NCBI GenBank assembly: GCA_003505715.1 | Contig: DNXU01000379.1 | Location: 1-10,932, forward strand | DNA length: 10,932 nucleotides | From: Cyanobacteria bacterium UBA8803 | GTDB lineage: Bacteria > Cyanobacteriota > Cyanobacteriia > Cyanobacteriales > Coleofasciculaceae | Direction of reading: 5' to 3' | In this document: positions 1-10,932 of the stretch, piece by piece | Numbering within the stretch: the first letter of the stretch is position 1 | Layout: each line of letters starts with the position of its first letter | The notes under the pieces: model-generated | Databases searched by the model: none | What the model was told of the DNA's origin: nothing | The model's input: the letters and a program-made list of their open reading frames with translations, nothing else | Position numbers and translations under genes: made by a program

Positions 1-18
1 ATCCCCCAATTCTGGGGG
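1..18. repeat. 18-bp palindromic repeat, left edge
   Basis: ATCCCCCAATTCTGGGGG, a C5/G5 inverted repeat around AATTCT, identical to 10915-10932 at the other edge. It resembles the dispersed C/G-run palindromes seen in cyanobacterial intergenic DNA. It may continue beyond the window. Confidence 0.75.
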
Positions 19-40
19 ACTTTAAGAATAAGAATAGGTT

Positions 41-320: not shown

Positions 321-3149
321 TTACCGCCAGTCGCCCTGCACCGTAAAAGCTGCCCAATAATAAGGAGACTGCCATTGTTCAGAATTCCACATCTCTAATT
401 GCGCCTCTCTCAAAGCGGTTATCGGATTTTGCCCGCCTTGCAACATCTTCTGATAAAACTTCGCCATCACCTCTGAAGTAGCAACATCATTCACCTTCCA
501 AAAACTTACCACCACGCGCCTTGCCCCAGCATACATAAAGCCTCTGGTCAAGCCTATCAAGCCTTCCCCTTTCACTTCTTTACCCAATCCAGTGTCGCAA
601 GCACTCAAAACCACTAATTCCGCAGGCAAATTGAGGTTGAAAATATCGTGCAAGCGCAAGAAACCATCTTGGGATTTGCCTTGTTGGTCGAATAGAGACA
701 GCACAATGCCTGATAATTCAGGATTGACTGGATCGACTAAGCCATGAGTCGCCAAGTGAACGATTTGATATTGAGCTAAGTTGGGGTCAATAGCCTTGGC
801 AAAAGAGGCATCAAAGTCCAAAGCTTGCAGGCTTTGCCCGTTGGGAACCAGGGCGAGGATTTTCTCAGCTTCAATGCGAGTGTTTGGCAAACGGTCATAT
901 ATCTTAGCACTATCCCCTAAACCCAAATTACGGGTAGCGCGAGTCCGAGCCAAATTGTTGGGCGTTTCAGGGATTGGTTGGGTGGGAGTGTTAGCTAGGC
1001 GAGGGTCATTAGCAGCGAAGATGGGATCAGCAATTACGGCAACGATTTTGGCAGCAGTGGCACGGTTTTGCAGTTGGCGGCGTTGAATCGCAACGGTGGA
1101 GGCAGAAGGGAGGGTGATGATTTCGTTTTGGACTAAAAGCGGGGTGGTGGGAGAAGATGGGATGGGTAGTGCGGCAAAAGGAACAGATTGCAATACCCCA
1201 TCCCCAACAATCAGTAAGCGTTTATTGCCCAGTTGAGAGGCAACGGGGGCGAGAATTATCTGACTCAGGGGGAGTCCGCTTTCCAGTGTGGCTGCACTAG
1301 AAGTGAGAGATTTACGGAAAGGTTGGGCGGCGGCTTCGATTTCGCTGCGTTTGGGTAGTACGTAACTGGTAATGCTGTTTTTGCTCACCAACCACAGGTA
1401 ACTGCTGTCTTCACCCAAGGAATATTCTAAAAGTATGGTATCTTCGTCGAGTACCTGTTGTTGAATTTCTTGTAAGTTTAGAGGTTGGGGATATTTCAGA
1501 GCAGCGTAACGGGGACTGGTGGTGCGAATTTGGGCTTTGAGTTGGTCGAGTTGAGTCAGAACGGTATCGATTTTTTGTTTAATTTCATCAAGTTGTTGTT
1601 GGGTATGTTGGCTGCTCAGTAGTTGATACTTTTGATAATCGAAGGTGTTGAGTTGTTGTTGTAATCTTTGTTCTTGTTCTAGTAGTTTGGGGTCTACACC
1701 TTGGCGGATATTGGCGTTAGCTTCGGTGAGGAGTTCGAGGAGACTTCTAGCACGAGCGCGTTCGCTAGCGTGGAGGGCGAGGGCATCGTAACCTTGGGAG
1801 GGGTTTTGTTGATGCAGTTGCATTAGGAGGTCGATGTAGAACTCGTAGTAGTCTTGGACGGTGGCGAAGTATGAGGCGCGGAGTTCTTGGGAGCCAATTT
1901 TGGTGCGGAGGTCTTCAATAATGGTGGTGGTGTTCTCTATCAGGGTTAAGGCTTCTTTCAGGTTGCCTTGGCTGCGTTGCAAGACGGCGGTGTTATAGAG
2001 AGTAGTAGCTTCTACACTTATATCTCCCACCACCTGAGATAGGGGCAAAGCTTGGTTGTAGAATTCCAAAGCTTTCTGTGTTTCTCCCAATGAGTGGTAG
2101 ACATTGCCAATATTAGTGAGAGTACGGGCTTCCTGCTCTCTATGCCCCACCGCCCGTAGTAGGGGTAAAGCTTGGTTGTAGTATTCTAAGGCTTTCTGCT
2201 TTTCTCCCAATGAGTCGTAGACAGCACCAATATTACTCAGAGTACCGGCTTCCCTACCTCTATCCCCTATCGCCTGTAATACGGGTAAAGCTTGGTTGAA
2301 TAATTCCAAAGCTTTGTGCTTTTCTCCCAATGAGTTGTAGACAGCGCCCATATTATTGATAATACTGGCTTCTCCACCTTTATCCCCCACCACCCGTATT
2401 AGGGGCAAAGCTTGGTTGTAGTATTCCAAGGCTTTCTGCTTTTCTCCCAATGAGTCGTAGACACTGCCAATACTATTGAGAGTATTGGCTTCCCCACCTC
2501 TATCTCCCACCGCCCGAAATAGAAGCAGAGCTTGGTTGAAGAATTCCAAGGCTTTCTGCTTTTCTCCCAATGAGTTGTAGACAGAGCCAATATTATTGAG
2601 AGTATAAGCTTCCCCACTTCTATCCCTGACCGCCCGTATTAGGGACAAAGCTTGATTTAATGATTCCAAAGCTTGCTGCATTTCTCCCAATGAGTCGTAG
2701 ACAGAGCCAATGCCAGAGAGAGTAAGGGCTTCCATACCTCTATCCCCCACTGCCTGAACTAGGGGCAGAGCTTGGTTGAAGAATTCCAAGGCTTTCTGCT
2801 TTTCTCCCAATGAGGAGTAGATATAGCCGATGTAATAAAGAGATACGGCTTCTGAGCCTTTGTCACCTGCTTGACGATAAAGTACGAAAGCCTGTTCAAA
2901 TTTAGGAATTGCCTGTCGCAGAGATTCTGCTGTTCCTTGTTTATAGAGTTGAAGCGCTTCCTGAAAAACCTGTTCAGCCGCATCAGAGTTAGCTGGCTGT
3001 TGGGCTATCCTGGGAGCTATCGGCTGAGGGATAGCAGCGAAGGATTGTGAGCCTAAGAGTAAGCAAGTTATCCCAGAAAGTGAAATCAACGGCACTAACC
3101 CCAGCCAAAGTTGTTTCTGAGTTACTGCTGTTTTGAAACGTTGAACCAT
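321..3149 (-). CDS. Exported TPR-CHAT caspase-like protease (gene D)
   Basis: TPR-CHAT protein of 942 residues counted from the ATG at 3149; a GTG directly before it (3150-3152) could also be used, but GAGG lies 7 bases from the ATG and only 4 from the GTG. A strong signal peptide (about 1-38; basic N-region, core [20 protein letters not shown], cleavage near SFAA) implies export. A divergent helical repeat is followed by a very regular TPR array of 40-residue units (about 90-370; consensus [18 protein letters not shown] then AVGDRG-EA-TL-NIGSVY), a last TPR (to about 425), the block [16 protein letters not shown], a coiled coil (about 490-540) and the CHAT domain (about 600-942). The dyad is intact: His802 in LATHG (codon 744-746) and Cys851 in LSACDTG (codon 597-599). 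Likely role: cysteine protease whose activity is gated by ligand or partner binding to the TPR face; substrate unknown. Last gene of the cluster, 46 bases after the stop of gene C. Confidence 0.92.
2041..2880 (-). repeat. Seven tandem 120-bp units encoding 40-residue TPRs in gene D
   Basis: Units at 2041, 2161, 2281, 2401, 2521, 2641 and 2761 repeat in exact 120-base register with no indel, each containing near-identical blocks such as GCTTGGTTG and TTTCTCCCAATGAG. The protein period is 40 residues, longer than the canonical 34-residue TPR and like the long-period TPRs of the LGN/AGS3 type. The unit farthest from the CHAT domain (2761-2880) is the most diverged in its second half. The pattern points to expansion by unequal crossing-over, with homogenisation still active or recent. 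Confidence 0.93.
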
Positions 3150-3156
3150 CACTGCA

Positions 3157-3160
3157 CCTC
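3157..3160 (-). promoter_or_regulatory. Shine-Dalgarno of gene D, deciding ATG over GTG
   Basis: GAGG on the minus strand, 7 bases before the ATG at 3149 and only 4 before the GTG at 3152. The spacing favours the ATG start, giving a protein one residue shorter. Confidence 0.6.
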
Positions 3161-3195
3161 AATTATTAATGGATTAAATCGAGCGAGAATCGACG

Positions 3196-4980
3196 CTACT
3201 GCCAATCGCCCTGCACGGTAAACGCTGCCCAATAATAAGGAGACTGCCATTGCCCAGAATTCCACATCTCCAACTGCGCCTCTCTCAACGCTGTGACGGG
3301 TTTTTGCCCTCCTTGCAACATCTTCTGGTAAAATTTCGCCATCAGTTCCGAAGTAGCCGCATCATTCACACTCCATAAAGATCCCACCACTTGCTTTGCT
3401 CCCGCAGACAAAAAGCCTTTTGCCAAACCGATTAACCCTTCTCCTTTCACGTCCTTACCCAAGCTAGTTTCGCTACCACTCAATACCACCAATTCTGCTG
3501 GCAAATTCAAATTAAAAATTTCATAAAGCCGCAAAAACCCATCTTGAGGCTTACCATTTCTGTCATATAACGACAGGACAATTTCTGACAGTTCGGGCTG
3601 AATAGGATCAAGTACCATGTGAGTGGCAAAGTGAATAATTTTAGATTCGGCCAAATTGGGGTTAGTAACAGTCGATCGCTCCGCCTCAAAATCCAAGGCT
3701 GGCAAACGCTGGTTTTCTGGCACGAAGGCGAGAATTTTCTCGGCTTCAATGCGCGTGTAGGGTAGCCGATTGAATATAACTCCCTCTTCCCCAAGTTCCA
3801 AGTCTTTGGTAGGTAAACTCTGGGCAGAATTTTTGGCTGGATTGGGAAGGCGAGGGTCATTCAAAGTAAAAACGGGATCGGCAATCACGGCAACATTTTT
3901 CGCTATTGGACGATTTTTAAATTGTTGGCGTTGAATGGCAATTAAAGAAGCAGAAGGAAGCGTAATAATTTCATTTCGTGCTAAAAGCGGCGTAGTGGGA
4001 GAAGATGGGATAGGCAGTGCAGCAAACGGTACATATTGCAACGCCCCATCTCCAACAATCAGCAAGCGCTTATTACCTAATTGAGATACAATCGGAGCTA
4101 AAATTATTCGACTTAATGAAATGCCGCTGTCAATATTTGCGGCATTACTTTTAGCGATAGATTGGCGGAAATTTTGCACAGCAGATTCAATTTCGCTGCG
4201 TTTGGGCAGTTGGTAACTGGTGATGCTATGTTTCGTCACCACCCATAAATAACTGCGTTCTTCACCAAGGGCATATTCCAGAAGTATAGTATCTTCATCA
4301 AGAACCTGTTGTTGAAATTCCTGTAGCGTTAGGGGTGGTGGATATTTGAGCGCAGCGTAGCGAGGACTGCTAAGGCGAATCTGAGTTTTTAATTGGTCGA
4401 GTTGAGCCAGATTAGTGGCGATTTTTTGGTTAATTTCGTTAAGTTCTTGCTCTGTATACTGACGGTTGAGAAGTTGATATTTTTGATGATTTATGCTATT
4501 GAGTTGCTGTAGCAAATTGCGTTCTTGTTCTAACAGTTTGGGGTTAGCGCTAGCGCGAATATTTGCGCCCGCTTCGGTGAGGTGTTCGATCAGATTTCTG
4601 GCGCGGGTGCGATCGCTAATCTCCCATGCTTGTGCGTCGTACCCTTGATCGGGATTTTGCCAGTGCAGTTGCATCAGCAAATCGCTGTACAACTGGTAAT
4701 AGCCTTGCACAGTAGCGAAGTAGGAGGCGCGGAGTTTTGGACTGGGTATTGTAGTGCGGAGGTTTTCGACAATAGCGATCGCATCCTCAATTTGAGTCAG
4801 TGCAGTATCAAAGTTGCCGCGATCGCGTTCTAACTCAGCACGATTATAAAGGCTAAGGGCTTCCTGTGCCTTGTCTCCCACTACATTACTGACGGGCAAA
4901 GCATAACTCAACCTCACCAGCAGGGTAGTGGATACAGCCAAACATTGGAATAATAAAATCAGCCCTGTTAGACGCGCCAT
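3196..4980 (-). CDS. Exported CHAT-domain pseudoprotease, TPR array lost (gene C)
   Basis: 594-residue CHAT protein, much shorter than its two neighbours. Residues 1-28 are a signal peptide (core LTGLILLFQCLAVSTTLLV, likely cleavage after SYA). It is followed at once by what aligns with the end of the TPR array of gene D (LPVSNVVGD versus LPLSQVVGD), one last TPR-like helix pair (to about 75), the inter-domain block (SDRTRARNLIEHLTEA), a coiled coil (about 150-198) and a full-length CHAT domain (about 260-594). The histidine motif reads FATHMV instead of FATHG (His454 kept, Gly to Met at 455). The cysteine motif reads LSGSETSLG where B and D have LSAC-TGLG, so the catalytic Cys is Ser503 (AGC, 3472-3474; TGC would need one base change). 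The frame is otherwise intact, so this is a maintained protein, probably catalytically dead as a thiol protease; regulator, decoy or scaffold is inferred. A GGAGG lies 7 bases before the ATG. Gene B ends 27 bases upstream. Confidence 0.9.
   Translation of the reverse strand: MARLTGLILLFQCLAVSTTLLVRLSYALPVSNVVGDKAQEALSLYNRAELERDRGNFDTALTQIEDAIAIVENLRTTIPSPKLRASYFATVQGYYQLYSDLLMQLHWQNPDQGYDAQAWEISDRTRARNLIEHLTEAGANIRASANPKLLEQERNLLQQLNSINHQKYQLLNRQYTEQELNEINQKIATNLAQLDQLKTQIRLSSPRYAALKYPPPLTLQEFQQQVLDEDTILLEYALGEERSYLWVVTKHSITSYQLPKRSEIESAVQNFRQSIAKSNAANIDSGISLSRIILAPIVSQLGNKRLLIVGDGALQYVPFAALPIPSSPTTPLLARNEIITLPSASLIAIQRQQFKNRPIAKNVAVIADPVFTLNDPRLPNPAKNSAQSLPTKDLELGEEGVIFNRLPYTRIEAEKILAFVPENQRLPALDFEAERSTVTNPNLAESKIIHFATHMVLDPIQPELSEIVLSLYDRNGKPQDGFLRLYEIFNLNLPAELVVLSGSETSLGKDVKGEGLIGLAKGFLSAGAKQVVGSLWSVNDAATSELMAKFYQKMLQGGQKPVTALREAQLEMWNSGQWQSPYYWAAFTVQGDWQ
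3227..3288 (-). repeat. 62-bp perfect repeat shared by 3' ends of genes C and B, copy 1
   Basis: Identical to 5039-5100 over 62 bases. It encodes part of the shared C-terminal block [20 protein letters not shown] and the residues after it, upstream of the final GDW. Gene D carries a slightly diverged copy at 352-413. Identity at synonymous sites, in contrast to the divergence elsewhere between C and B, points to gene conversion of the 3' end. Confidence 0.9.
4609..4826. repeat. Three HIP1 octamers clustered in the 5' part of gene C
   Basis: GCGATCGC occurs at 4609-4616, 4775-4782 and 4819-4826, all within coding sequence for the last TPR helix and inter-domain block of gene C. I see no HIP1 copy in the other three genes, whose homologous segments are otherwise alignable. 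Confidence 0.8.
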
Positions 4981-4987
4981 CCCTAAC

Positions 4988-4992
4988 CCTCC
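4988..4992 (-). promoter_or_regulatory. Shine-Dalgarno of gene C
   Basis: GGAGG on the minus strand, 7 bases before the ATG at 4980, inside the 27-base gap after the stop of gene B. It supports both the start of C and the view that this inactive CHAT gene is still translated in its own right. Confidence 0.7.
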
Positions 4993-5007
4993 AAAATTGT
5001 CAACAGC

Positions 5008-8000
5008 CTAACGCCAATCCCCCTGTACAGTAAACGCCGCCCAATAATAAGGAGACTGCCATTGCCCAGAATTCCACATCTCCAACTGCGCCTCTCTCAA
5101 AGCAGTAACCGGATTTTGCCCCGACTGAAGCATGTTCTGATAAAACTTACTCATCAATTCCGAAGTAGCGATATCATTCACACTCCACAAACTCACCACA
5201 ACTCGCTTGGCTCCAGCATACATAAAGCCTCTTGTCAAGCCGATAATCCCTTCCCCTTTCACATTTTCACCTAATCCCGTTTGACAGGCACTCAATACTA
5301 CCAACTCCGCAGGTAAATTCAGGTTAAAAATATCATGGAGGCGCAAAAATCCATCCTGTGTTTCTCGTTTTTCATTAAAGAGTGATAAGACGATTCCAGA
5401 TAATTCCGGATTAACGGAATCGAGTAAACCGTGAGTGGCAAAATGAACTATCTGATATTGAGCTAAATTAGGGTCAGTGGCTTGAGTACGAGAGGCGTTA
5501 AAGTCTAAAGCTTCCAACTCTTGGATTTCTGGCACTAAAGCCAGAATTTTTTCGGCTTCGGTGCGGGTAAATTTGAGACGGCTAAATAGTGTCGCATTTT
5601 CGCCAATCCCTAAATTGCGGGCAGCGCGATTGAGGGCTTCATTGTCTGGTGTTTTTGGAGTTTCTTGACGTGAATTGCTTTCAAAGCGAGAATCATTAAG
5701 ATTAAATACTGGGTCAGCCAAAACAGCTAAAGTTTTAGCAGCAGGGGTACGGTTTTGCAGTTGTTGGCGTTGAATGGCAATGGTGGAGGCAGAAGGAAGA
5801 GTAACTATTTCATTTTGGACTAACAGAGGAGTGGTGGGAGAAGAAGGTAGAGGTAGTGCGGCAAAGGGAATGTATTGCAATACCCCATCTCCAACAATCA
5901 GTAAACGTTTATTACCGATTTGAGAGGCAATGGGAGTGAGTAAAATTTGACTGAGGGGGATGCCAGTTTCTAGGTGGGCTGCACTGGAAGTGAGAGATTG
6001 ACGCAAAGTTTGGGCAGTGGCTTCGATTTGGCTACGTTTAGGAAGGACATAGCTATTGATACTATTTTTAGTCACGGCCCAGAGATAACTGCGGTCTTCG
6101 CCTAGGGCATATTCTAAGAGAATGGTATCGTCATCGAGTACCTGTTGTTGAATTTCTGTTAGGGTTAGGGGTTGGGGATATTTCAGGTTAGCGTAGCGAG
6201 GACTAGTGAGGCGAATTTGGGCTTGGAGTTGGTCGAGTTGAGTAATAACATTATCAATTTTTTGTTTAATTTCAGTGAGTTCTGTTTCTGAATATTGACC
6301 GCTAGTAAGTTCATACTTACGATGGTCTAAATCATTAAGCTGTTGTTGTAAAGTCTGTTCTTGCTCTAATAGTTGGGGGTCAACTCCTTGGCGAATGTCT
6401 GCATAAGCTTCGGTGAGGATTTCCAGGAGACTTCTAGCGCGGGCGCGTTCGCTAATTTCTAAGGCTTGTCCATCATATCCTAGATTAGGTTTTTCTTTGT
6501 GGAGTTCCATTAATAAATCGATGTAAAATTGGTAGTAATCTTGGTTTTGGGCAAAGTAAGATTGCCGCAGTTCTTGGCTCCCAATTTGGGTGCGGAGCGA
6601 TTCAATAATTTTAATTGCTGTTTCAATTTCTGCTTGGGCGGCAGCGAGGTTATTTTGTTGACGGTTTAAGATGGCTTGATTGTAAAGAATGCGGGCTTCT
6701 TCGGTTTTATAACCGAGTTTTTTGGATAGGGGCAATGCTTGGTTGTAGTATGCTTGAGCTTGGGAAATTTGACCGGAATCGGCGTAGATTTTTCCGATTT
6801 GGTTGAGGATGGTAGTTTCTTTGATTTGGTCTTTTAGGTAGCGGTAGATTTGAAGGGATTGGTTGTAGGCATTGAGGGCGGTTGACCAGTCTTTTGAGGC
6901 TATGTAGATGCTACCTATGCCACTTAAGGCAGTAGCTTCGGTGGCTAAATCTCCTGCGGAGCGTGAGATAATTAGGGCTTTATTGTAGGAGTCTATTGCA
7001 TTTTTCCATTGTCCTGTAGCAGCTTCGATATCGCCAATATTTTTGAGGGTGGTGGCTGCACCTCCCCTATCGTTTAATTCATATAACAGAGGTAAGGCTT
7101 GGTTGTGATATTCCAGAGCAGTTTTCGGGTCGGCTAAATCGTTGTAGAGTTGACCGAGACTGTTGAGGATGGCTGCTTCTTCTGCTTTTGCACCTGCTTG
7201 TCGCGATAAAGGTAATGCTTGGTTGTAGGAGTCTAGGGCAGTTTGGAATTGACCTAAATTGGTGTGAATGTTGCCCATAAGGAGTAGTGTGTGGGCAGCT
7301 TTAGCAGAGTTGTTATCGGTACGATAAAGGTTGAGCGCTTCTTCTAACTTTTGAAGTGCCAGTTGCCTCGATTCGATGGTTTGTTGCTGATTTAATTGGA
7401 CTCCTTCTTGCAACGTCTGTTTAGGGACATAGGCATAAATAGCGGCTGATACTTCCCACAAGCGGATGCTGCCACCCCAACTGCTGGTAAGGATTTGGTT
7501 ACCATCGGGGCTAAATATTCCAATATTGATGCTATCGTCGTGCCCTTGGAATTCAGCTAGGAGGTTACCCGAAATATCCCACAGGAGGGGCGTACTGTCA
7601 CCTAGCGTAAGAATACGGCGACCATCTGGGCTAAACTTTGCACTAGTTACCCCGAATTGATGCCCCCGAATTTCGATTAGGATCTTCCCTGAAGTATCCC
7701 ACAAGCGGGCAGTTGTTCCATACAAACTGGCAGTGAGGATTTGATTACCATCGGGACTAAATTCTGCACTGGTTACTCCATTGTCATACCCCTGGAATAC
7801 TGTTAGGAGTTTACCCGAACTATCCCAGAGTCGGGCGGTTTTATCTTCACTGGTAGTCAGAATTTGGTTACCATTGGGGCTGAATTCTGCACTTATGACT
7901 GAACCCTCATGCCCTTGGAATACTGATAAAAGGTTACCTGAAGTATCCCAGAGTCGGGCGGTTTTATCATCACTGGCAGTGAGGATTTGGTTGCTATCGG

Positions 8001-8553
8001 GGCTAAATATTGCACTGTTGATTCCCTCTTTATGGGTTTGGAATTCTGCTAGACGGTTGCCTGAAGTATCCCATAAGTAGATGGTGTCAACCCATGTAGT
8101 GATGATTTGCTTGCCATTAGGGCTAAATTCTACGGTGTTAGCTCTCTCTCCTTCCGTCTGATTCCCCCGCAATTCTGCTATGAGGTTGCCCGAAGTATCC
8201 CATAAGTTGACGCTACGATCGTGCGCCGTGAGGATTTGCTTGCCATCGGGGCTAAATTCTGCACTGGTGACAGTACCATGCCCCTGGAATACTGCTATGA
8301 GATTACCGGAAGTGTCCCACAAGTGGGCAGTTCCATCCCGACTAGCCGTGAGGATTCGGTTCCCATCAGGGCTAAATTCTGCACTGGTGATGTCCCTCTC
8401 ATGCCCTTGGAATTTTGCTGGTTGAGTATTATCCTTAGACACATCTTGCTTCAAGTTTGGTAGAGCAACTACCTGCTCAATGTGGGTGGTAAGTAAGCGA
8501 ATAGAAATAATCAAAGTTATAGATACAACTGTATAAGCATTCCAGCTACTCAT
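5008..8553 (-). CDS. WD40-TPR-CHAT caspase-like protease (gene B)
   Basis: Multidomain protein of 1181 residues combining sensor repeats with a protease. Order: N-terminal hydrophobic segment (about 8-31, signal peptide or membrane anchor, possible cleavage after VVA before LPN); eight WD40 units (about 47-370), enough for one 8-bladed propeller; TPR-like helical repeats of about 40 residues (about 385-655, NQALPLS-type helices); the conserved inter-domain block with [17 protein letters not shown]; a Gln/Glu/Leu-rich coiled coil (about 728-780); and a C-terminal CHAT domain (about 840-1181). The caspase-type dyad is present: His1041 in FATHG (codon 5431-5433) and Cys1090 in LSACQTG (codon 5284-5286). 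CHAT is a clan CD cysteine peptidase family that includes HetF and the TPR-CHAT Csx29 of type III-E CRISPR; the substrate here is unknown. Its ATG follows the stop of gene A by 2 bases with only a weak AAGTAAG-like purine stretch, so translation is probably coupled to A. Confidence 0.92.
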   Translation of the reverse strand: MSSWNAYTVVSITLIISIRLLTTHIEQVVALPNLKQDVSKDNTQPAKFQGHERDITSAEFSPDGNRILTASRDGTAHLWDTSGNLIAVFQGHGTVTSAEFSPDGKQILTAHDRSVNLWDTSGNLIAELRGNQTEGERANTVEFSPNGKQIITTWVDTIYLWDTSGNRLAEFQTHKEGINSAIFSPDSNQILTASDDKTARLWDTSGNLLSVFQGHEGSVISAEFSPNGNQILTTSEDKTARLWDSSGKLLTVFQGYDNGVTSAEFSPDGNQILTASLYGTTARLWDTSGKILIEIRGHQFGVTSAKFSPDGRRILTLGDSTPLLWDISGNLLAEFQGHDDSINIGIFSPDGNQILTSSWGGSIRLWEVSAAIYAYVPKQTLQEGVQLNQQQTIESRQLALQKLEEALNLYRTDNNSAKAAHTLLLMGNIHTNLGQFQTALDSYNQALPLSRQAGAKAEEAAILNSLGQLYNDLADPKTALEYHNQALPLLYELNDRGGAATTLKNIGDIEAATGQWKNAIDSYNKALIISRSAGDLATEATALSGIGSIYIASKDWSTALNAYNQSLQIYRYLKDQIKETTILNQIGKIYADSGQISQAQAYYNQALPLSKKLGYKTEEARILYNQAILNRQQNNLAAAQAEIETAIKIIESLRTQIGSQELRQSYFAQNQDYYQFYIDLLMELHKEKPNLGYDGQALEISERARARSLLEILTEAYADIRQGVDPQLLEQEQTLQQQLNDLDHRKYELTSGQYSETELTEIKQKIDNVITQLDQLQAQIRLTSPRYANLKYPQPLTLTEIQQQVLDDDTILLEYALGEDRSYLWAVTKNSINSYVLPKRSQIEATAQTLRQSLTSSAAHLETGIPLSQILLTPIASQIGNKRLLIVGDGVLQYIPFAALPLPSSPTTPLLVQNEIVTLPSASTIAIQRQQLQNRTPAAKTLAVLADPVFNLNDSRFESNSRQETPKTPDNEALNRAARNLGIGENATLFSRLKFTRTEAEKILALVPEIQELEALDFNASRTQATDPNLAQYQIVHFATHGLLDSVNPELSGIVLSLFNEKRETQDGFLRLHDIFNLNLPAELVVLSACQTGLGENVKGEGIIGLTRGFMYAGAKRVVVSLWSVNDIATSELMSKFYQNMLQSGQNPVTALREAQLEMWNSGQWQSPYYWAAFTVQGDWR
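5039..5100 (-). repeat. 62-bp perfect repeat shared by 3' ends of genes B and C, copy 2
   Basis: Identical partner of 3227-3288, in direct orientation and about 1.8 kb away. Recombination between the two copies would delete gene C in frame with the end of gene B, so the locus has a built-in route for copy-number change (inference). Confidence 0.9.
7447..8416 (-). repeat. WD40 repeat array of gene B (8 units)
   Basis: Eight WD40 units of about 39-43 residues, each with FSP(D/N)(G/S) and LW(D/E). Unit 3 is longer in its first strand-loop (RGNQTEGERANTV) and unit 2 is two residues short. The sequence is close to the array of gene A at protein and DNA level, so the two arrays share recent ancestry. 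Eight units fit a single closed propeller in front of the TPR region. Confidence 0.9.
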
Positions 8554-8555
8554 AG

Positions 8556-10736
8556 CTATTTAGGCTTACTTAAATTAATTGCTGCTAACACATCCCAGAG
8601 TCGGACAGTTTTATCATCACTGGCAGTGAGAATTCGGTTGCCATCAGGGCTAAATGCTGCACTTGCGATCTGAGCCTCATGTCCCCGATATTCTACCAAG
8701 AGGTTACCTGAAATATTCCACAGACGAATTGTTCCAGTACTATCGGCGGTGAGTATATAGCGACTATCGGGGCTAAATTTTGTAATGGTCGATCCACTTC
8801 CAATACCAGACCCATTTTGTAATTTTGCTACAAGGTTGCCCGAAGTATTCCACAAGTAGACAGTTGAACCCAAAAAACTGATGGTGAGAATGTGGCGACC
8901 ATCGGGGCTAAATTCTGCTCTGGCGGTGTGATCGTCATCCCCCTGGAATACTGCTAAGAGATTGCCCGAAGTATCCCACAAGCGGACATTTCTAGCTAGC
9001 TCATCAGTAGTGAGGATTTGGGTTCCATCAGGACTGAATATTGCGCTATTGACTCCAAAACGATCATCCCCTGGGAATTCTCTTATGAGCTTGCCCGAAG
9101 TATCCCAAAGATGGGCGTTTCCAGGCGCACTGGCGGTAAGGATTTGGTTGCCATTGGGGCTAAATACTGCTCTTGTGACAGTATATCCATACTCACCTTT
9201 GAATTCTGCAATCAGCTTGCCCGAAGTATCCCACAATCGGGCGGTTCCATCCTCACTGGCGGTTAGGATTTGCTTGCCATCAGGGCTAAATTCTAAACTG
9301 GTGATATTACCCTCATGTCCTTGGAATTCTGCAATGAGTTTGCCTGAAGTATTCCACAGGCGGCCAATTGTATCCTGATCTGCGGTGAGGATGTAGCGAC
9401 CATCTGGGCTAAATACTGCGTTATCATTTGGGAGAAAGAGTAATATCCCATTTCTGGTATCACCCTCGCGCCCTCGCAATTCTGTGATGAGCTTACCAGA
9501 TGTGTCCCACAGACGAGTGAGCTTAGCATCCAGCGCCAGGTATTCCAAGCTGGTTGTGAGGATATAACGACCGTCGGGACTAAATACCGCATTTCTGACA
9601 GCATCCTGATGATTAAGTGACAATAGTTGAGCGTTTTTCTCGGCTACCCTGTCTCCAAAGCTTTGCAGAACAGATACTTGCTGGTTTTGGGCAGCAATCA
9701 GATTTGATATATCCCATAACCGAGCCGTCTTATCCATATTGACAGTCAAGATGTACTGACCGTTGGGACTAAATTTTGCACTGTCCCCAGACCCATACCC
9801 TTGGAATTCTGCTATGACTTTGCCTGAAATATCCCAAAGGCGGATAGTATTCGAGCTGGCTGTGAGGATTTGAGTCCCATCGGGGCTAAATACGGCACTG
9901 GTGACAAAATCCTGATGCCCCCGCAAGACAGCTAGGAGATTACCTTGGCGATCCCATAACCGAGCGGTTTTATCCCAGCTTGCCGTGAGGATTTTGTTCC
10001 CATCGGGACTAAATACTGCACGGATGACAAAACTCTCGTGACCCCGAAATTCTGCCAGGAGCTTGCCGGAAGTATCCCATAGGTGAGCGGTGTTATTACC
10101 ATCTGCTGTGAGGATTTGATTGCCATCGGGACTAAATACTGCACTGTTGCTCCCATACTCATGCGTCCGGAATCCTGTCAGGAGTTTTCCCGAAGTATCC
10201 CATATACGGACAGTACCATCATCACTTGCCGTGAGGATTTTGCTCCCATCTGGGCTAAATACTGCACTATTGACTCTCTTATCATGTCCCCGGAATTCTG
10301 CTATGAGTTTGCCTGTAGTATCCCACAGGCGGACAGTTTTATCCCCACTAGCAGTGAGGATTCGGTTCCCATCGGGGCTAAATTCTGCACTGTTGACGCT
10401 ATCTTCATCCGCCCGAAATACTGTTAGAAGGTTGCCCGAAGTATCCCACAAGCGGACAGTTTTATCCCCACTAGCAGTGAGGATTCGGTTCCCATCGGGG
10501 CTAAATTCTGCACTGTTGACATGACCCTCATGCCCGACGAACACTGCAAGTTGACCACCAAATGCCTGTGCGGGTTGCTGAGTTTCTGATGGATTGGGGG
10601 TTGTGGTTGTCAGTGACTGAGACAATGTGAGACTTGGGGGTTGAGCGTTAATTGGGGTGCTTGTGATGGTAGCAAAGACCATGCTCATCAGAAGAGGCAA
10701 ACAACGATGGATTTTTCGATAATTACCTCGAAACAT
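8556..10736 (-). CDS. Exported WD40-only repeat protein, 15 repeats (gene A)
   Basis: Predicted extracytoplasmic beta-propeller protein of 726 residues, with no enzymatic domain visible. Residues 1-32 form a clear Sec-type signal peptide: basic N-region (RGNYRKIHR), hydrophobic core (LPLLMSMVFATI), likely cleavage after INA before QPP. A Thr/Pro/Gln-rich linker (about 33-62) follows, then 15 WD40 units from about 64 to 715, each near 41 residues with core FSPDGN-ILTAS-DKT-RLWDTSG. A roughly 35-residue insert rich in Gln and charged residues (about 341-377) separates units 1-7 from 8-15, which fits one 7-bladed and one 8-bladed propeller. The family role is protein-protein or ligand scaffolding; the partner here is unknown. 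First gene of the cluster; its TAG stop lies 2 bases before the next ATG. The ATG is chosen because the signal peptide begins there, but no good Shine-Dalgarno precedes it. Its last residues (DVLAAI) resemble the end of the WD40 array of gene B (EVSAAI), so A may be a propeller-only derivative of that architecture. Confidence 0.9.
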   Translation of the reverse strand: MFRGNYRKIHRCLPLLMSMVFATITSTPINAQPPSLTLSQSLTTTTPNPSETQQPAQAFGGQLAVFVGHEGHVNSAEFSPDGNRILTASGDKTVRLWDTSGNLLTVFRADEDSVNSAEFSPDGNRILTASGDKTVRLWDTTGKLIAEFRGHDKRVNSAVFSPDGSKILTASDDGTVRIWDTSGKLLTGFRTHEYGSNSAVFSPDGNQILTADGNNTAHLWDTSGKLLAEFRGHESFVIRAVFSPDGNKILTASWDKTARLWDRQGNLLAVLRGHQDFVTSAVFSPDGTQILTASSNTIRLWDISGKVIAEFQGYGSGDSAKFSPNGQYILTVNMDKTARLWDISNLIAAQNQQVSVLQSFGDRVAEKNAQLLSLNHQDAVRNAVFSPDGRYILTTSLEYLALDAKLTRLWDTSGKLITELRGREGDTRNGILLFLPNDNAVFSPDGRYILTADQDTIGRLWNTSGKLIAEFQGHEGNITSLEFSPDGKQILTASEDGTARLWDTSGKLIAEFKGEYGYTVTRAVFSPNGNQILTASAPGNAHLWDTSGKLIREFPGDDRFGVNSAIFSPDGTQILTTDELARNVRLWDTSGNLLAVFQGDDDHTARAEFSPDGRHILTISFLGSTVYLWNTSGNLVAKLQNGSGIGSGSTITKFSPDSRYILTADSTGTIRLWNISGNLLVEYRGHEAQIASAAFSPDGNRILTASDDKTVRLWDVLAAINLSKPK
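10329..10397 (-). repeat. 69-bp perfect direct repeat, copy 1 (WD40 unit 2 of gene A)
   Basis: Base-for-base identical to 10452-10520, offset 123 bases (one WD40 unit). It encodes VNSAEFSPDGNRILTASGDK and the following TVR. Synonymous positions are also identical, so the copy is recent or maintained by gene conversion. Confidence 0.92.
10452..10520 (-). repeat. 69-bp perfect direct repeat, copy 2 (WD40 unit 1 of gene A)
   Basis: Identical partner of 10329-10397. Identity breaks on both sides (A versus G at the left edge, A versus G at the right), leaving the GH-loop segments of the two units different (VGHEGH versus RADEDS). Confidence 0.92.
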
Positions 10737-10840: not shown

Positions 10841-10914
10841 GACCACCTTTATGGGAAATGCTAAATAATCTTCCCACAGTCACCTGTATCAAATCAACTC
10901 AATTACTGCCCTAA

Positions 10915-10932
10915 ATCCCCCAATTCTGGGGG
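10915..10932. repeat. 18-bp palindromic repeat, right edge
   Basis: Same 18 bases as 1-18, in the same orientation, about 180 bases upstream of the first gene of the cluster. The cluster is therefore bracketed by two copies. No transposase or further terminal repeat sequence is visible within the window. Confidence 0.75.

Follow-up and report, generated by a model that had tools for sequence, protein, structure and literature searches.

A WD40/TPR-CHAT gene array with a maintained pseudo-CHAT member in a cyanobacterium, and a possible Tat-type orthocaspase partner

CHAT proteases, orthocaspases and pseudo-orthocaspases have already been described (PMC6426788). Csx29 is the TPR-CHAT component of Craspase (type III-E CRISPR), in which a relay runs from the TPR to the active site (PMC10028731), and HetF of Anabaena is a cyanobacterial protein that also combines CHAT with TPR (PMC8406250). 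Here we analyse a four-gene cassette of WD40, TPR and CHAT modules in Cyanobacteria bacterium UBA8803, on a stretch of 10,932 bases (the window) that is the complete contig C299 of an 8.07 Mb genome in 642 contigs. The explanation we favour, tentatively, is that the cassette is a tandem, module-shuffled WD40/TPR-CHAT array that forms part of an extracytoplasmic module of two caspase folds, the other being a Tat-type orthocaspase. The argument turns on gene C of the array, a pseudo-CHAT, and on the orthocaspase genes that neighbour CHAT genes in related genomes. Near relatives of the window proteins bear names such as Coleofasciculus, Allocoleopsis, Oscillatoria and Microseira.

The four genes, which an earlier note made from the letters of this DNA had described as tightly spaced and co-oriented, were confirmed as open reading frames (ORFs) on the minus strand, in the transcription order D, B, C, A and with gaps of 2 (D-B), 27 (B-C) and 43 (C-A) bases:

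8556..10736, minus strand: gene D, WD40 only, 726 residues, about 15 WD40 units (own profile; Pfam WD40), probably exported
5008..8553, minus strand: gene B, WD40(8)-TPR(5)-CHAT, 1181 residues, dyad His1041/Cys1090, weak signal-like N-terminus
3196..4980, minus strand: gene C, near-bare pseudo-CHAT, 594 residues, His454 kept, Ser503 at the catalytic Cys position
321..3152, minus strand: gene A, TPR-CHAT, 943 residues, dyad His803/Cys852
2021..2852, minus strand: 120-base tandem repeats in gene A, coding for TPR units, copy number uncertain

Pfam agrees with the architectures given in the earlier note, assigning WD40, TPR and CHAT to B, TPR and CHAT to A, and CHAT as the sole family to C; for D it gives WD40, and the top 25 of its 58 families include neither TPR nor CHAT. 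CHAT (PF12770) scores 222-235 bits in A, B and C, compared with a curated cut-off of 24 (E 2e-65 to 1e-69). The active-site motifs are HLATHG/SACDTG in A, HFATHG/SACQTG in B and HFATHM/SGSETS in C; the His-Cys dyad is intact in A (codons at 744-746 and 597-599) and B (5431-5433 and 5284-5286, from the alignment) and not in C, where Ser stands for Cys (His454 at 3619-3621, Ser503 at 3472-3474). Several features set the locus apart from Csx29: the window holds neither Cas7-11 nor a CRISPR part among its ORFs (it is a whole contig, so that the neighbours on both sides of the cassette lie off it), its proteins have signal-like starts, B and D carry a WD40 arm, and C is without Cys. In HetF the CHAT domain is N-terminal and is followed by a transmembrane segment and the TPRs (PMC8406250), whereas A, B and C carry it at the C-terminus.

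By its sequence, gene C is a maintained pseudo-CHAT and not a dying gene. It is a CHAT family member by homology and, because the His-Cys dyad is incomplete, is not expected to be a protease; the earlier note had called it inactive, which stands, and its evolutionary maintenance, read from dN/dS and from a clade of proteins without Cys, can be added. Three-point distances with seven outgroups gave dN/dS of 0.12-0.19 on the C side (dS 0.69-1.03) and of 0.09-0.23 on the A side, ratios that are rough because many pairwise dS values exceed 1. At columns that do not vary among 18 other sequences, C departs in 16 of 146, A in 2 of 148 and B in 5 of 151, and the same measure gives 8 of 154 and 7 of 153 in two more distant relatives. 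The changes in C gather at the active site: nine of the twelve near-invariant columns that it breaks sit around the His and Cys, in stretches that account for 35 of the 130 near-invariant columns (p 4e-4 by a hypergeometric test, with the stretches picked after a first look; the reference was 47 dyad-intact relatives, leaving out the four non-Cys proteins). Conserved residues at 520-533 are changed too. Decay into a pseudogene is unlikely from the pairwise and three-point dN/dS, and a sequencing error is unlikely since an identical protein is listed in four contigs.

The structure model of C is helical to about residue 225 and then mixes strands and helices, so that it is not quite a bare CHAT. 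A sequence search found no related solved structure at E 0.01, and a fold search was therefore needed; it matched Csx29, separase, DdvA and gingipains. Separase is eukaryotic and cleaves cohesin, the likeness being in fold only, and for DdvA no paper surfaced among those listed in the open-access literature searched.

C has counterparts. P0002 (594 residues) is 83% identical end to end and carries HFATHM and SGDKTS, with Asp for Cys, and P0003, an 873-residue TPR-CHAT protein 73% identical to C, carries HFATYA/SSSETG, with Tyr for His and Ser for Cys. In a FastTree tree of 89 sequences C pairs with P0002 at support 1.0, and P0003 groups with the two at 0.999; Cys is absent in all three members of this clade, and the TPR array is absent as well in C and P0002. 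A further TPR-CHAT protein with Ser for Cys and the His kept is P0074 (Spirulina sp. CCY15215, 975 residues). Such proteins are rare: the dyad is His/Cys in 186 of 190 proteins taken from the best 120 of 4569 and the best 120 of 7819 matches, a rate among near relatives since only best matches are included, and the rest are C, P0002, P0003 and P0074. Within the 64 CHAT ORFs of the loci fetched from the same genome, C alone has a non-Cys residue in the Cys column (a few fragments are unaligned there). Across the loci examined, which overlap so that some genes are counted more than once, 147 of the 149 ORFs with both columns aligned have His/Cys, the other two being copies of C. The Met after the His is no mark of loss by itself, as acidobacterial L073 has HFATHM together with a Cys.

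Could C still be an active protease that uses serine as its nucleophile? The Cys is exchanged for Ser in C, P0003 and P0074, with the His kept in C and P0074, but the closest counterpart has Asp at that position, P0003 is without the His too, and the changed residues at 520-533 also speak against activity; we consider this very improbable. A pseudo-protease kept beside active relatives has a parallel in cFLIP, the pseudo-caspase kept beside caspase-8, although the comparison with C is by analogy only. Cyanobacterial orthocaspases and pseudo-orthocaspases share with the present case the caspase fold, the phylum and the keeping of dead variants (PMC6426788). They belong to Pfam C14 and not to CHAT, whereas here the dead protein is a CHAT and C14 is the family of the linked partner. 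The substitution seen in P0003, Tyr/Ser, is the commonest one in pseudo-orthocaspases, a different Pfam family (PMC6426788).

The partner comes into view in related genomes, where the gene order ties orthocaspase genes to CHAT genes in many genera. Time and again, the gene immediately preceding one of WD40, WD40-TPR-CHAT or TPR-CHAT type encodes an orthocaspase of about 400 residues with a twin-arginine start of SRRxFL or TRRxFL type, which we take to be a Tat signal. These orthocaspases match Peptidase C14 (PF00656) at E 7e-22 to 1e-19 in the five tested and carry SGHG and DSCxxG motifs with the dyad intact; an orthocaspase match at 1e-80 is present in 50 of 148 genomes of the order. Examples of short orthocaspases adjoining WD40/TPR-CHAT genes are:

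L148, 6477-7670, strand not stated: short orthocaspase
L154, 4496-5695, strand not stated: short orthocaspase
L198, 3998-5191, strand not stated: short orthocaspase

We read all 31 near-full-length short orthocaspase matches with their flanks, leaving out five short partial rows (G152, G118 twice, G078 and G008) and keeping L209 (stop codons), L219 (on a 5 kb contig) and L150 (without its N-terminus). A same-strand WD40/TPR/CHAT gene lies within three genes in 26 of the 31, one of them the orthocaspase that this genome carries on C567, from 17 genera, downstream in 24 and upstream in 2, with CHAT in view in 22. In the other four linked loci (L145, L195, L199 and L207), three of them at contig ends, the neighbour is WD40 or TPR with no CHAT by profile. 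The five unlinked loci are L201, which has a CHAT gene further downstream, L209, L210, L217 and L219. As a control, 283 genes in 20 arbitrary stretches from genomes of this order were scored likewise: 10 had a neighbour of this kind, in no case a CHAT gene (Fisher p 5e-25, without correction for shared ancestry). Long orthocaspases (700+ residues) show the linkage as well: of 17 read, part of those listed and including one of 683 residues cut by the locus end and one of 772, ten adjoin CHAT (six with it next downstream, four next upstream) and seven do not, one of these being cut on its downstream side.

The cassette itself appears to have been shaped locally. Gene D aligns over residues 1-715, at 49%, with the front of the genome's own 1826-residue WD40(22)-TPR(5)-CHAT protein, and C aligns with the back of the same protein, whose gene adjoins an incomplete 1913-residue one in a tandem array on contig C15; further tandem arrays occur in other genomes (L066, L152, L160 and L198). 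Because D and C align with the two ends of one protein and such arrays recur, the four-gene layout is best read as having arisen locally, by duplication and the loss of modules. In L198 (G085:C33), two tandem WD40(24)-TPR(5)-CHAT genes, of 1944 and 1937 residues, stand behind one orthocaspase. Relatives carry one to several WD40/TPR-CHAT genes, and among 254 loci examined (ORFs of at least 250 residues; many loci short, overlapping or ending at contig ends) the window alone has all four architectures together. The self-contained four-gene network proposed in the earlier note is thus not borne out as a conserved unit; the neighbour that recurs in relatives is instead the Tat-type orthocaspase, which this contig, cut short upstream of D, would not reveal. 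At E 1e-120 D found only itself in 148 genomes of the order, where seven candidates per genome were scored in the rows listed and the test was too strict; at 1e-60 in 20 genomes of the family WD40 cross-matches dominate. Matches covering its N-terminus adjoin an orthocaspase in L145 and L146.

The same data are open to a plainer account, an ordinary duplication array in which A and B are paralogues that function by themselves and C and D, left behind by module loss, have no role. The 88 PF12770 matches in the genome speak for it, as do the alignments of D and C with one resident protein, the tandem arrays elsewhere and the confinement of the full set to the window. The purifying selection on C over a long branch, its full-length non-Cys counterpart and the wider non-Cys clade run counter to it; this selection argument covers C and not D. 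Idle by-products are possible, above all for D, but we regard the account as a whole as doubtful.

The extracytoplasmic part of the favoured explanation depends on the N-termini, which were judged by crude hydropathy and charge. D, A and C start with positive charge followed by a hydrophobic stretch, and their export is likely on this basis; of the earlier note's assignment of a signal peptide or hydrophobic start to every gene, this much stands, while B is the weaker case, its hydrophobic stretch not being preceded by net positive charge. The start of A is common to relatives in Coleofasciculus and UBA11372 and to metagenome proteins, and the N-terminus of D to the WD40-TPR-CHAT proteins L051, P0159 and P0167. 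For the four proteins together the signal-like starts are suggestive of export and do not prove it: in the part of the genome fetched, the hydropathy of at least 2.1 found in all four genes is also reached by 18% of 355 other ORFs, and a value of at least 1.8 occurs in 30 of 57 CHAT ORFs of at least 400 residues, which indicates that a signal-like start is common in the CHAT family and not special to the cassette.

A cytoplasmic CHAT-type conflict system, acting in anti-phage defence or cell death, would explain the hydrophobic stretches as membrane anchors or chance and have the repeats sense intracellular invaders. CHAT, TPR and WD40 domains do occur in bacterial conflict systems (PMC10907252), and HetF is by its authors' account a membrane-associated CHAT protein facing the cytoplasm (PMC8406250). 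This alternative is nevertheless unlikely given the signal-like starts in three of the four genes, the twin-arginine starts on the linked orthocaspases and the content of the window. Indeed, the earlier note had recognised no named system and had seen neither a STAND NTPase nor a CRISPR component, and both observations hold: the window ORFs include no NTPase and no CRISPR component, and PADLOC on the window returned TPR-, HEAT- and weak repeat-type matches only, none of them for C and none defining a system.

Several further points weigh, with the weak signal of B, against the reading of the cassette as part of an orthocaspase-containing module. The window holds no orthocaspase, nor do the 196 bases upstream of D up to the contig end. 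The orthocaspase that this genome carries on C567 has a different TPR-CHAT gene behind it, and a second short one (L210; C449, 2056-3261) has no CHAT gene in view. The linked loci share ancestry, and the Fisher p therefore overstates their independence. The full set of architectures is confined to the window, and D could have arisen as a shortened, functionless duplicate.

Contig sizes nevertheless point to a 48 kb contig that would carry both the cassette and an orthocaspase. The listings give four contigs each for C (P0001) and B (P0169), three for a version of A with three more TPRs (P0129), and four for P0231, the orthocaspase of this genome that is identical to the C567 copy; in every case the longest measures 48,314 bases, and this equality is the ground for placing them together. 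P0003, P0010, P0161 and orthocaspase P0249 likewise all list a contig of 38,000 bases. Among the contigs listed, 20 of 119 distinct orthocaspase contig sizes equal one of 178 distinct CHAT contig sizes, compared with a mean of 0.53 and a maximum of 2 when the sizes are shifted by 1-30 bases.

A short repeat (CCCCCAGAATTGGGGGAT) is shared by the two ends of the window (1-20 and 10912-10932) and L163, and the assembly probably broke there; compared with the other contigs examined, the window ends gave short dispersed repeat matches only and no overlap. Gene A is shorter by exactly three TPR units (120 residues) than the otherwise near-identical P0129 (1063 residues, from another assembly), which makes its repeat number doubtful and may reflect assembly collapse or strain variation. 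Promoter-like sites in the window number 15 (16.0 in shuffles) and terminator-like sites 7 (10.8); with no excess of either, co-transcription of D-B-C-A is read solely from the spacing.

How might such a module work? In A and B the dyad is joined to a repeat superstructure, D has such a superstructure and no protease, and C is maintained with neither the nucleophile nor a long repeat array. A and B may be latent proteases with their TPR/WD40 arms as sensors: outside the cytoplasmic membrane a ligand, or a damaged protein, would bind the arm and rearrange the active site of the CHAT domain, in the manner of the TPR of Csx29. The orthocaspase would act before or after A and B in the same compartment. 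C could bind without cutting, either to a partner or substrate that A and B also bind or to A, B or the orthocaspase themselves, and so damp or gate A and B, and D might serve as a free arm that competes for the ligand. Extended to filamentous cyanobacteria at large, this would be an extracytoplasmic relay of a Tat-exported orthocaspase and Sec-exported separase-type WD40/TPR-CHAT proteases, regulated by a pseudo-CHAT and a free propeller much as caspase-8 is by cFLIP, a picture that we put forward as speculative and rather less probable than the array-and-partner explanation itself.

In the open-access literature searched, no paper contained both 'orthocaspase' and 'CHAT domain' or both 'CHAT domain' and 'pseudoprotease', 'metacaspase' and 'CHAT domain' met only in work on a fungus, and the pairing of an orthocaspase with a WD40/TPR-CHAT gene was not found named. 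PMC8283722 does mention one orthocaspase associated with a CHAT domain, which indicates that the two subjects can meet under other wording; PMC3501461 analyses metacaspase operons, and 'CHAT' is not printed in the portion of it available to us.

Cyanobacterial orthocaspases and the large CHAT expansions of cyanobacteria are mostly without known partners or substrates. Their recurrent pairing in genomes connects these families and supplies a candidate partner for each, perhaps within one compartment. A pseudo-CHAT kept under selection would, within the literature searched, be an undescribed type in the CHAT family, parallel to the pseudo-orthocaspases. Together, these observations bear on the role of caspase-like proteins in the stress and cell death of cyanobacteria, and the two-protease relay, if true, would be a caspase-like signalling network operating outside the cytoplasmic membrane.
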